Virus record (IMG/VR): IMGVR_UViG_3300044949_001174
Span: 1-35,588 of that record
DNA from: a virus
Direction: 5' to 3' (one strand)
Length of the DNA stretch: 35,588 nt
Shown: positions 31,959 to 35,588 of the stretch, one piece after another
Position numbering within the stretch: the stretch's first letter is position 1
Layout of the letters: the number at the start of each line of letters is the position of its first letter
Position numbers and translations under genes: made by a program
The notes under the pieces: generated by a model
Databases searched by the model: none
What the model was told of the DNA's origin: nothing
The model's input: only the letters and a program-made list of their open reading frames with translations

Positions 31959-31985
31959 TTATCTTTCCAGATATGTTTGTTGTTA

Positions 31986-33143
31986 TCAGATGTTGCCGTC
32001 ATCTTGGATGAAGCTGAATGCAGTGGTAATGAAATCGGTGTTAAGGATTTCGAAACCAGCGTACAGTTGCCAAATCAGAATGATGAAGCGGCTGAAGTCG
32101 TCGTTGTTGTTGATCAGAACCTGAGCATTCGGGCCGCCGATACCAACGCCAACGGCTTGAGGACCGAAGAAGTAACCTTGTGCAACTTCACGAGAAGCAT
32201 AGGTACCACCAGTGCCATCAAAGGAAGCACTGATGCTCTTGCTTGGGAAGTTGGTCGATTCGAAGAACTTCACACCTTCGAACTGAACGCCGGTCGGCAT
32301 CACAGGTTCACCAGCCAGGAAGTAACCTTGGCCAGCCTGAGGACCCATGTAGAAGCTGGCGTTGTTAGGCATCATGGGATTACCCATGTACATGCCTTGA
32401 CCAGGGTTACCAGCGTAACGAGCGATCTCACGGAAGTCAGGATCACGACGCAGGTGCATCATGAAGACGGGATCGCAGATGCAACGATACAGACCATCAG
32501 AGAAGGTCGGAACGTTACGCTTACGCAGGTCCTTAACAACGTTCAGCAGGTCGGTACGAACCTGGAATTGCTGAACATCGGCAGTGTACTCAGTGGCGGT
32601 ATAAGCAATACGACCAGAGGAATCTTTGGTCTTACCACCAGCAAAGTAGTAACCACCTTGCGAAGTAGAGGCGGCACCATTGGCTTCAGCTTTGGCGAGT
32701 TCATCAAGGAACACGCGGTCACGCCAACGGCGATAGTCGTCGAGCAGCGTCAAGCTACCAATCGACTGGTGGAACATATTAAGGTTGCCGGAATCCAGGA
32801 GAAGGCGCTGGGCCGTAATCAGGGTCTCACGAGCAATCTTGAAGGTCGAAGGTTGAGTAGGATCACCCGGGTCCGCAGGACCGGTGTATTCCTTCAGCAC
32901 AACAAGCACCTTCTCTTTGGTGATGTTGCGGCTGTTGGCAGTACCGATGGTCTGGTCGGACACACGCTCACGGCTGTCCTTGGTACCAGGGGTACCCCAG
33001 AACTTATAGCGATCTAACTGAACGGTTTGACCAGGCTGCCGAGTGAAGTCATGAACGACCACAGGCTCGACTGCCATTTCTGCGATATACGCAGGATGGG
33101 GACGGTAAAGTTCCGCACCTAAAATCTTGGGAAAATCGTTCTC
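31986..33143 (-). CDS. Major capsid protein, exon 2 (interrupted by group I intron)
   Basis: The minus frame is open from the proposed splice site at 33143 to the TAA at 31986. It encodes ENDFPKILGAELYRPHPAYI then AEMAVEPVVVHDFTRQPGQT and on to SFIQDDGNI, 385 residues. A naive start would be the ATG at 33077 (MAVEPVVVHD), but the 66 bases upstream are open in frame and read as protein, so the gene continues into the intron. Its size, compact soluble composition, preceding scaffold-like gene and adjacent capsid-associated gene support the capsid role. Exon 1 is probably GTG TTT at 33972-33977. No HK97-family motif was searched. Confidence 0.75.
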   Translation of the reverse strand, partial: ENDFPKILGAELYRPHPAYIAEMAVEPVVVHDFTRQPGQTVQLDRYKFWGTPGTKDSRERVSDQTIGTANSRNITKEKVLVVLKEYTGPADPGDPTQPSTFKIARETLITAQRLLLDSGNLNMFHQSIGSLTLLDDYRRWRDRVFLDELAKAEANGAASTSQGGYYFAGGKTKDSSGRIAYTATEYTADVQQFQVRTDLLNVVKDLRKRNVPTFSDGLYRCICDPVFMMHLRRDPDFREIARYAGNPGQGMYMGNPMMPNNASFYMGPQAGQGYFLAGEPVMPTGVQFEGVKFFESTNFPSKSISASFDGTGGTYASREVAQGYFFGPQAVGVGIGGPNAQVLINNNDDFSRFIILIWQLYAGFEILNTDFITTAFSFIQDDGNI

Positions 33144-33971
33144 CTGGTCTCTAGTTTCTTAGAGGGGTGGACTATCTCTTCATCCCTGTGGGATGCCGGA
33201 CGCTAAATCTGGTATTACGTAACAAGATCGTGTTACACCCAGTAGTCTCTGCACCTTCCAATCACGACTTGATTGGCTTGGCTCAGGATTACCCTCGTCT
33301 TTACGTTAGGGCTTCCCTGAATTCATCCGGTTTGCACCCATCGATTGCTCGGTGGGGTGACAACGTTGAGCGTTCAGTTGAGGCATGTTATGCTTTGGAA
33401 ACTTGTTCATGAACAAAATGAATCCAAAACTTGTTCCAGGATTTGGTAATCTTTACTTAACAGAAGAAGGAATCGCTTTTGAAAAACAACTTGATCCCGA
33501 CAATCAAGAATATTTTAAAAAGATTCCTATTCGATCAACCAGTGTTTATGACCGTATTTCAGTTCTTGTAAATGGAAAGAGGAAAAGGTTTCATCTTCAC
33601 GTCTTGATGGCAGTTGCCTTTTTAGGATTAGATCTGCGTTCCCATGGAACCAGTAACTTTTCCTTACAGGTTGATCACAAAGATAATGACAAGAGGAATA
33701 ATCGACTTGACAATCTAGAGATCGTTACCAAACAAGAGAATTTAACAAGAGCCTGGAAAAACGGTTGCTATAAAAACAATGGCTTTGCCAGTAAAGGAGC
33801 ATCGAAGAAAACGTTGAGAAAGTTTTCTTCAAATGACGTGACTCAAATCAAATCTTTAAAAGAAGCAGGACTTTCGTATAGAAAGATTGCGGAAAAGTTT
33901 GACTGTAATCACGGAGCTATTTACCAAATCTTGAAAGGTTATACCTACCAGGATCTGAACTAGCTATCAAT
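33144..33971 (-). ncRNA. Group I intron in the capsid gene (about 828 nt)
   Basis: On the minus strand, core elements occur in order: P (AATTCAGGGAAGCCC, 33310-33323), Q (AATCCTGAGCCAAGCC, 33275-33290), a CCAATCA/TGATTGG P6 hairpin, R (GGTGCAGAGACTA, 33243-33255), P8 GTAACA/TGTTAC, CATCCC/GGGATG and S (AAGAGATAGTCC, 33169-33180), then a P9 hairpin CTCTA/TAGAG. R and Q match the Anabaena tRNA-Leu intron nearly exactly. The IGS GAACGCT (33369-33375) pairs with exon GGTGTTT over 7 bp with a U-G pair at the splice site. P3 is not resolved. The splice sites are predicted. An HNH gene lies within the P1 loop on the opposite strand. Confidence 0.85.
33409..33963 (+). CDS. HNH homing endonuclease in P1 loop, antisense to intron
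   Basis: 184 residues from ATG 33409 (MNKMNPKLVPGFGNLYLTEE); an ATG at 33385 adds 8 residues. HNH core: FHLHVLMAVAF, then VDHKDNDKRNNRLDNLEIVT with the H-N-H residues. The C-terminal HTH is KKTLRKFSSNDVTQIKSLKE then AGLSYRKIAEKFDCNHGAIY, a resolvase-like DNA-binding end typical of homing nucleases. The gene is on the plus strand, while the intron and capsid are on the minus strand. Its stop lies 8 bases from the predicted 5' splice site, so the whole gene sits in the loop of P1. This orientation is unusual for intron nucleases. Confidence 0.85.
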   Translation: MNKMNPKLVPGFGNLYLTEEGIAFEKQLDPDNQEYFKKIPIRSTSVYDRISVLVNGKRKRFHLHVLMAVAFLGLDLRSHGTSNFSLQVDHKDNDKRNNRLDNLEIVTKQENLTRAWKNGCYKNNGFASKGASKKTLRKFSSNDVTQIKSLKEAGLSYRKIAEKFDCNHGAIYQILKGYTYQDLN

Positions 33972-34076: not shown

Positions 34077-34523
34077 CTACATATACTGCAAAGTTGGTGT
34101 GGCAGTACGTGCCATCAAGGTATTGCTGGATCCATAACGCTCTGGATCCTCACCTTGAATGACGTTCATAACACCGCCGCCAATCGTGCCACCAAGTGCG
34201 CCTGCACCAAGAACACCTAATCCAGTGCCAAGTGCAAACTCAGCCTTGGGACTAGTAGAGCCAGCCTTAACAAGCCTACTCATGTAGCCTGGCCCAAGAG
34301 TTGCCCCTACTCCTGCACCTAAAGCACCGGCGCCTAACGCTTCCGCAATTAGACGACCGGGACTTTTTTCTTGTGCTTGGCCGGTAACAACGTTTCCAAG
34401 GGTGGCAAGACCTGCAGCGGCGGCACCTGCACCAAGAGTGGACAATGTGGGGTCCATTGCTGCATTTATTAATGCTGCTTTACCCTTTGAAAGTAACGGA
34501 TTGAATTTACCGGCTAGCTTCAT
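34077..34523 (-). CDS. Gly/Ala-rich (glycine-zipper) virion protein
   Basis: 148 residues. Glycine-zipper stretches LGAGAAAAGLATLGNVV, EALGAGALGAGVGATLG and LGTGLGVLGAGALGGTIGGG alternate with helical segments and could span or deform a membrane. The start follows the scaffold-like gene's TGA by 4 bases with GGAG upstream. The position between the scaffold and the capsid gene suggests a minor head or ejection protein. No family is recognised. Confidence 0.65.
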   Translation of the reverse strand: MKLAGKFNPLLSKGKAALINAAMDPTLSTLGAGAAAAGLATLGNVVTGQAQEKSPGRLIAEALGAGALGAGVGATLGPGYMSRLVKAGSTSPKAEFALGTGLGVLGAGALGGTIGGGVMNVIQGEDPERYGSSNTLMARTATPTLQYM

Positions 34524-34527
34524 GACC

Positions 34528-35523
34528 TCACTCCATCACAAACAATTTGTTTGCAACAACTTGAGGTTGAGCTTGGTTCAGTAAACGCCAGGCGTTTGCC
34601 GGATCTATATCCATCTGTTGCTTAAAGCTGCCCCAGAAGTTTTCAGGACGCTGGGGAGCAGTTGCAGAAGGAGGTGCTGGCATGTACGGATTCACCGAAT
34701 CGATTGGTGCCGTGCGATAACCAGGAGTCTCAAGTTCGGTCTCACTTTCGTACACAGGGCACGGACCTTCAGGACCAAAGAACTGCAGGGTGTAATCGCT
34801 GAGAACATCAGGGTTCGTCAGGATTTCATTGTATGCAAGATTCTCTTGGTGCTCATTGACTGCAAAACCGGCATAACCAGTTAACAGACCTTGTGCTTGT
34901 TGGCCCCATGCAACAGCACTATCTAACATTCCCTCAAGATTAAGGGCGTATTGATTGAGGATTGCTGGTGCATTCCAACCGTAGTTACTTACTACGAACT
35001 TGCTTTCGTTGTTTAGGTTCAGATAATCCGCGATTGCCGTTTGTACTTCCCCGGTCGGATTTAGTCCGTCGAGCGTTGAGTAAATCGCCGAAGAAATTTG
35101 GGAAGAGTTGGGCGAGTATGTCTGGTTGGCTTGCCAGGTCTGCGGAGCCGATTGATACGTACTTTGGCCGTTCGTTTGTCCGTAATTGGCCGGACTGTAG
35201 GTCGTCGGTGCTGACGGTTGACCCTGGAACGGGGATTGAACTGGGCTGCTCAGAAGGCCCACCACCTTGTTGAATGCCGACTCCCATGGATTGCTCTGGC
35301 TCTCCGATTGGGATTGGGGGGCGTACTGAGACGGGTTTGATTGGTAACTGGGGGCCGCCTGTGGTACTGCTTGGGGGTAGCTCGTACCCACCTGATACGG
35401 GGCTGGTTGTCCCACTGGAGCTGCTGGTGCTGCTTGGTAGCTCGGCACCACGTAGCTGCTTGGAGCCACCGCTGCCGGAACTTGGCTCGTCTGTGGGATC
35501 GATTGGACGGTAGCGTCCTGCAT
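34528..35523 (-). CDS. Scaffold-like protein, Gln/Pro/Ser-rich
   Basis: 331 residues from ATG 35523 with AAGGAG 7 bases upstream. The first ~150 residues are disordered Gln/Pro/Ser/Tyr/Ala repeats (YQAAPAAPVGQPAPYQVG). The C-terminal half is helical (TAIADYLNLNNESKFVVSNYG, ILNQYALNLEGMLDSAVAWG) and ends in a hydrophobic/charged helix. Placement directly upstream of the capsid genes and this composition fit a capsid-assembly scaffold. A second open frame covers its first 540 bases on the same strand (see 34985-35588), so part of this region may be coding in two frames. Confidence 0.65.
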   Translation of the reverse strand: MQDATVQSIPQTSQVPAAVAPSSYVVPSYQAAPAAPVGQPAPYQVGTSYPQAVPQAAPSYQSNPSQYAPQSQSESQSNPWESAFNKVVGLLSSPVQSPFQGQPSAPTTYSPANYGQTNGQSTYQSAPQTWQANQTYSPNSSQISSAIYSTLDGLNPTGEVQTAIADYLNLNNESKFVVSNYGWNAPAILNQYALNLEGMLDSAVAWGQQAQGLLTGYAGFAVNEHQENLAYNEILTNPDVLSDYTLQFFGPEGPCPVYESETELETPGYRTAPIDSVNPYMPAPPSATAPQRPENFWGSFKQQMDIDPANAWRLLNQAQPQVVANKLFVME

Positions 35524-35588
35524 AACTCATCTCCTTTTGTAAAGCTTCTAAAGTTCGATACAGATATGGCGTTAAATCCAATCTTGGA
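34985..35588 (-). CDS. Overlapping reading frame, 5' end outside window
   Basis: Open from the window edge (reads PRLDLTPYLYRTLEALQKEM) to a TAA ending KQRKQVRSK, at least 200 residues, in a different frame of the same strand as the scaffold-like gene. The first ~22 codons lie upstream of the scaffold start and read as a normal helix. The middle is Pro/Ser/Gly-rich, and a later part (YVSIGSADLASQPDILAQLF then PNFFGDLLNARRTK) also looks like protein. It could be the end of an upstream gene overlapping the scaffold by about 540 bases, or an accident of the stop-poor composition. Confidence 0.4.
   Translation of the reverse strand, partial: PRLDLTPYLYRTLEALQKEMSYAGRYRPIDPTDEPSSGSGGSKQLRGAELPSSTSSSSGTTSPVSGGYELPPSSTTGGPQLPIKPVSVRPPIPIGEPEQSMGVGIQQGGGPSEQPSSIPVPGSTVSTDDLQSGQLRTNERPKYVSIGSADLASQPDILAQLFPNFFGDLLNARRTKSDRGSTNGNRGLSEPKQRKQVRSK

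Follow-up and report, generated by a model that had tools for sequence, protein, structure and literature searches.

On comparative sequence evidence, a true and conserved dual-coding overlap of two head genes is very likely present in the S-EIV1-like cyanophages, where the 5' half of a putative scaffold or other head-assembly gene (b) would be written in the +1 frame over the 3' end of the gene that very probably encodes the portal protein (a). The window analyzed here is the entire virus record IMGVR_UViG_3300044949_001174 of 35,588 bp, in which the overlap sits at the contig end on the minus strand. The nearest named relative of the window is Synechococcus phage S-EIV1 (KJ410740), with 72.8% identity over 67% of the query; no other record in a set of 50,697 from phages gave a match. 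The window represents part of the genome of an S-EIV1-like cyanophage, and this group is widespread among viruses of cyanobacteria. Searches by tblastn with a, b and the capsid protein against the 50,697 phage records likewise returned S-EIV1 only, with no distant homologues, and since S-EIV1 is the sole isolate match, there is no outgroup for polarizing the origin of the overlap.

Layout of the two frames and their conservation

The gene order on the minus strand is portal (a), b, c and major capsid, and frame a runs without a stop from the contig end (35587) to a TAA at 34987-34985. The features referred to in the text are the following.

34985..35588, minus strand: 3' part of gene a, with the C-terminal 200 codons visible and the remainder past the contig end
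34528..35523, minus strand: gene b, 331 aa, with ATG at 35523 and stop at 34528, a putative scaffold or head-assembly protein
34985..35523, minus strand: probable dual-coding overlap of 539 nt, in which b is read at +1 relative to a
35531..35536, minus strand: ribosome-binding site AAGGAG of b, with 7 nt between site and ATG
35524..35588, minus strand: visible end of a stretch of a with lowered synonymous diversity, covering about 100 codons upstream of b
35248..35289, minus strand: segment NPWESAFNKVVGLL of b (residues 79-92), in codon columns 90-120, where constraint on b dominates
35078..35152, minus strand: segment IGSADLASQPDILAQLFPNFFGDLL near the C-terminus of a, in codon columns 150-180, where constraint on a dominates
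34077..34523, minus strand: gene c, 148 aa, between b and the capsid gene
31986..33077, minus strand: major capsid protein, 363 aa, matching phrog_1357 major head protein (E 3.5e-17)

A sequence-only reading of the window had proposed two same-strand frames open over about 540 bases, together with a ribosome site and start at 35523 for b; both proposals are borne out, with 539 nt shared and AAGGAG at 35536-35531, and FPNFFGDLLNARR was found in frame a at the place given by that reading. Frame b contains an in-frame TGA two codons upstream of the ATG, and in every relative it extends at most one codon upstream of the ATG; given this TGA, b must start at the ATG at 35523 or within the frame that follows. 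The same-strand +1 arrangement would in principle allow b to be made as a fusion with a through ribosomal frameshifting instead of from its own start, but this is highly improbable, as the start and ribosome site of b are invariant in 133 of 133 loci and the TGA closes the frame before the ATG.

The comparison covers 230 loci in the final count (133 unique complete, 86 duplicates and 11 partial), which were fetched by b, by a, by divergent b and from genomes; the sample consists of the best 80 matches per scan, and every locus lies inside the S-EIV1 clade. Scanning the genomes of bacteria and archaea with the alignment of a added a single locus, L232, which is included in the 230. Among the matches listed, both frames are open in all 133 unique complete loci, the overlap measures 509-641 nt (median 554), and the ATG of b is invariant (133/133), while b lies in the +1 frame of a at every locus examined. 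At the ribosome site of b, CAAAAGGAGATGAG is identical in 133 of 133 loci and is followed by TT in 128 and by CT in 5. No locus with one gene but without its partner was found among the 230, whichever protein had fetched it. Full-length homologues of b occur in at least 80 IMG/VR loci, and the b of S-EIV1 shares 64% identity over residues 1-331, with homology reaching the ATG inside a. Two observations that the sequence-only reading had named as contrary to an overlap, stops in the second frame in relatives and an upstream gene ending before 35523, were thus not encountered: the second frame is open in 133 of 133 relatives among the matches listed, and a, with a full length of 754-794 aa in 44 representatives, spans the overlap in relatives.

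Chance of open frames and selection on the overlap

When the protein of a was held fixed and its codons were redrawn from upstream usage, frame b stayed free of stops in 4.8% of the window's draws and in a mean of 6.6% across 85 relatives. None of 1000 permutations of a's own codons left b open in the window, and a mean of 0.7% did so for the relatives; redrawing the codons of b never left a open (0/1000 in each of the 85). For one sequence alone, the open b frame is therefore only moderately surprising, and the weight for dual coding comes from the 133 of 133 relatives and from the substitution pattern.

The substitution pattern was studied in the 44 representatives whose a is full-length, which were aligned at the protein level. 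Upstream of codon -100, diversity at the third positions of a is about 0.5 (roughly 0.41-0.66 by window); it takes the values 0.30, 0.24, 0.255 and 0.147 from about codon -100 to b, and reads 0.069, 0.326, 0.077, 0.213, 0.045, 0.270 and 0.369 in the seven well-covered overlap windows to codon 175. With a tree made from DNA outside the overlap, parsimony counts 13.06 changes per third position of a upstream and 3.98 within the overlap, and the count per first position rises from 2.94 to 5.65. Synonymous-site conservation in relatives, which had been suggested as a check, is therefore strong.

Dual-frame dN/dS (w) was estimated from 250 of 946 pairs, with each difference classed as silent or not in each frame and with intervals obtained by codon resampling, which are somewhat too narrow because the sequences are related. 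Within the overlap, the estimates are 0.59 (0.47-0.74) for w_a and 0.34 (0.27-0.41) for w_b, both below 1. The control in upstream a with a fake b gave w_b of 0.88 (0.72-1.07) and 0.82 (0.66-1.03), and that in downstream b with a fake a gave w_a of 1.32 (0.93-1.81). A contrary control was provided by the 100 codons of a immediately ahead of b, where w_b is 0.51 (0.31-0.91) though the frame is closed there; a constraint of a non-coding kind exists just before b and could inflate the signal near its start. Because selection is purifying in both frames, unlike in the controls, and both frames are open in 133 of 133 loci, the stretch is very likely dual-coding, which supports the earlier proposal of two-frame reading over about 180 codons.

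These values bear directly on the version of the gene given in GenBank, where the S-EIV1 record places b (AHV82225) at 59863-60264, after the stop of a. It is very unlikely that b starts there and that the overlap encodes a only, with b open by chance. The record itself and the 5-7% chance of an open b in a single sequence under upstream codon usage would agree with such a start, but homology of b begins at 59287 and reaches the ATG inside a, w_b in the overlap is well below 1, and the conservation of synonymous sites in a is confined to the overlap and the roughly 100 codons ahead of it. Moreover, a later start would lack a ribosome site in 123 of 133 loci, GGAG, GAGG or AGGA being present before the first possible start of b after the stop of a in just 10 of the 133. 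The S-EIV1 annotation of b is therefore short of about its first 190 residues, half of the protein, and the actual S-EIV1 overlap is 554 nt, with the same start and ribosome site.

Constraint is partly segregated along the overlap, where the two frames mostly alternate, with b dominant over about the first 120 codons and a over about codons 150-180. Gene b is strongly held in codon columns 0-30 and 60-120 (w_b 0.11, 0.21 and 0.13); in columns 90-120, w_b is 0.13 and w_a is 1.04 (0.48-3.89), with no constraint on a, and in columns 150-180, w_a is 0.26 (0.14-0.43) and w_b is 0.67 (0.36-1.08), so that purifying selection on b is less firm there. The stretch held by b contains NPWESAFNKVVNLL, and that held by a contains IGSADLASQPGILAQLFPN. 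In low-confidence models, the NPWESAFNKVVGLL segment holds the sole predicted helix in the overlapping half of b, and the IGSADLASQPDILAQLFPNFFGDLL segment of a holds predicted helices at 719-725 and 729-734. The absence of constraint on a in columns 90-120 and the low-complexity tail of its product would suit an overlap that encodes b only, in which a is cut short or is a passenger frame. There is, however, no stop in a before the shared end in 133 of 133 loci, redrawn b never leaves a open, and w_a is below 1 overall and 0.26 in columns 150-180, so that coding by b only can be given very little credence.

An attempt to derive the age of the frames from codon usage was abandoned. Correlations with S-EIV1 late genes were poor for both overlap parts (0.04 for a and -0.23 for b); the overlap part of b correlated at 0.56 with downstream b, and that of a at 0.17 with upstream a. 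By this measure b is slightly more at home, but composition confounds the comparison, and no claim on age is made.

The stretch of low synonymous diversity before b begins sharply at GTTGATAGCATTGAAGCA, about 300 nt before b (for example, L001:4701-5000), and no other open same-strand frame was found in these approximately 100 codons, which hints at a cis-element before b. A cis-acting DNA or RNA element, such as an internal promoter, an RNA fold or translation coupling, could be proposed as the explanation of the low synonymous diversity as a whole. The conserved stretch contains TTGATA, and one weak promoter-like match was found in L001, with 0.8 expected by chance; no copy of the conserved stretch with few mismatches was found elsewhere in S-EIV1. 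Set against synonymous shuffles in 11 of the 44 representatives, RNA folds were somewhat favored: mean z lay between -1.5 and -1.9 in three windows and between -0.3 and -0.9 in the controls. Both-side changes occupied 17 cells in the fold versus 5.1 in shuffles. Single sequences, however, gave fold z values of just -0.75 to -1.42, just 5 of 85 pairs ever showed both-side changes, and no Rfam match was found near the start of b; the evidence for RNA structure at the start of b is suggestive at best. As an element would neither hold two frames open over more than 500 nt nor yield codon-phased selection in both, it is unlikely to account for the pattern by itself, although it may well coexist with dual coding.

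Gene identities, expression and known overlaps

Gene a very probably encodes the portal protein. The 200 residues in view align with positions 543-697 of the 701-position profile phrog_20475, a virion structural protein (E 4.3e-38), so the upstream gene does not stop ahead of 35523. Portal families are matched as well: phrog_64 by 25 of the 30 members of a examined (best E 2.9e-5) and, weakly, phrog_533 by 12 and phrog_104 by 3. Searches of Pfam gave no portal match and no other match of weight, and no PDB match was obtained by sequence. With a model of a as the Foldseek query, the top 28 rows were all portals or portal/neck/tail complexes (E from 4.7e-5), at TM-scores of 0.11-0.17 and with a poor AlphaFold query model (mean pLDDT 38). 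In S-EIV1, a (57537-59840) lies between the terminase (54080-56620) and the capsid homology (60934-62007). The last core helix of the a model spans residues 570-586 and the ATG of b falls at codon 586, which suggests that the portal core ends about where b begins.

For b, no PHROG, Pfam or PDB match of weight was found, and none to a known scaffold; the absence of a PHROG is perhaps due to the shortened annotation. The model of b (mean pLDDT 41) predicts disorder over residues 1-149 save a few helical residues, and a long helix at 185-236. Outside the b-held and a-held stretches of the overlap, the product of a is rich in Gly, Ser and Pro and of low model confidence, as expected of disorder, and that of b is rich in Ala, Ser, Gln and Pro, also of low model confidence; the overlap is thus predicted to encode disordered tails of both proteins, with the disorder and helices giving weak evidence in view of the poor quality of both models. 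Gene b sits between the portal and major capsid genes, two genes ahead of the latter, and this gene order and the predicted long helix suggest a putative scaffold or other head-assembly protein. Scaffold gene, the label used in the sequence-only reading, is a putative one: b resembles a scaffold only in position and in the helix content predicted by the low-confidence model, and no family or structure match backs the label. In the b gene of locus L005 (2041-3084), a 21-residue stretch (around GYANFAVNE..EN) is apparently tandem-duplicated and is present as a single copy in other relatives.

The proposed arrangement is that of a portal gene with a long disordered C-terminal tail, over which the 5' half of b would be written in the +1 frame. 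Both proteins would most likely be made from one mRNA, with ribosomes on a running to its stop inside b and other ribosomes presumably initiating b independently at the strong internal ribosome site. The portal is normally present in 12 copies and the scaffold in far more, and starting b internally, possibly aided by an internal promoter, would then be expected to raise its amount above that of the portal. A more speculative reading, doubtful at present, is that the portal tail and the N-terminal half of the scaffold bind each other and nucleate procapsids, while an element within the gene (the frozen 300 nt) sets the scaffold-to-portal ratio; if it were true, the overlap would be kept for regulation and co-evolution and not for space saving in a genome of about 80 kb.

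In phage lambda, the scaffold Nu3 starts internally in C, in the same frame, in a gene block between portal and capsid. This appears to be the nearest known system in function: here too, a scaffold-type candidate from the portal-to-capsid block starts within an upstream head gene, but b lies in the +1 frame at every locus, unlike the in-frame Nu3, and the upstream gene is the portal. The pair of a and AHV82225 in S-EIV1 (KJ410740) consists of the same genes with an overlap in the DNA, although the record annotates none. PMC6139136 describes the spanin genes Rz/Rz1, in embedded and overlapped architectures, as the established out-of-frame same-strand pairs of tailed phages, which are often unannotated; the shifted same-strand frames (in lambda, Rz1 is read at +1 relative to Rz) and a Pro-rich product are shared with the present case, whereas spanins are small lysis proteins and the genes here are head genes sharing 509-641 nt. 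The holD/rimI pair of enterobacteria is a co-directional overlap conserved in relatives, but of at most 56 bp, and among 338 cellular genomes, 0 of 715 co-directional overlaps of at least 60 bp were accepted as real (PMC2478687). In a survey of virus genomes, +1 overlaps have a median length of 14 nt (PMC8903798). No earlier description of the portal/b overlap was found in the literature searched. The kind, out-of-frame phage overlaps, is known, and what would be new is the gene pair, in a long (>500 nt) and clade-wide example. The reference genome of an abundant cyanophage lineage is also corrected, as b regains about its first 190 residues, and the many relatives make the overlap a good natural case for how two frames share constraint.

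Neighboring genes of the head region

No family match was found for gene c at a threshold of 0.001. The major capsid gene of S-EIV1 is 87% identical to that of the window (L082:7638-8789 corresponds to KJ410740 60859-62010); instead of a single gene, the S-EIV1 record shows two CDSs there, AHV82227 in antisense and the partial AHV82228. An antisense frame over the capsid gene of the window (31977-33017, plus strand, 346 aa) was considered and rejected as a candidate, being stop-free in 15 of 109 unique capsid genes and not conserved. An HNH endonuclease gene (window 33385-33963, plus strand; HNH_3, E 3.4e-10) is inserted between c and the capsid gene; of the 61 loci measured, 13 have a gap of about 1 kb here and the other 48 one of 139-192 nt, indicating that the HNH gene is patchy in its occurrence.
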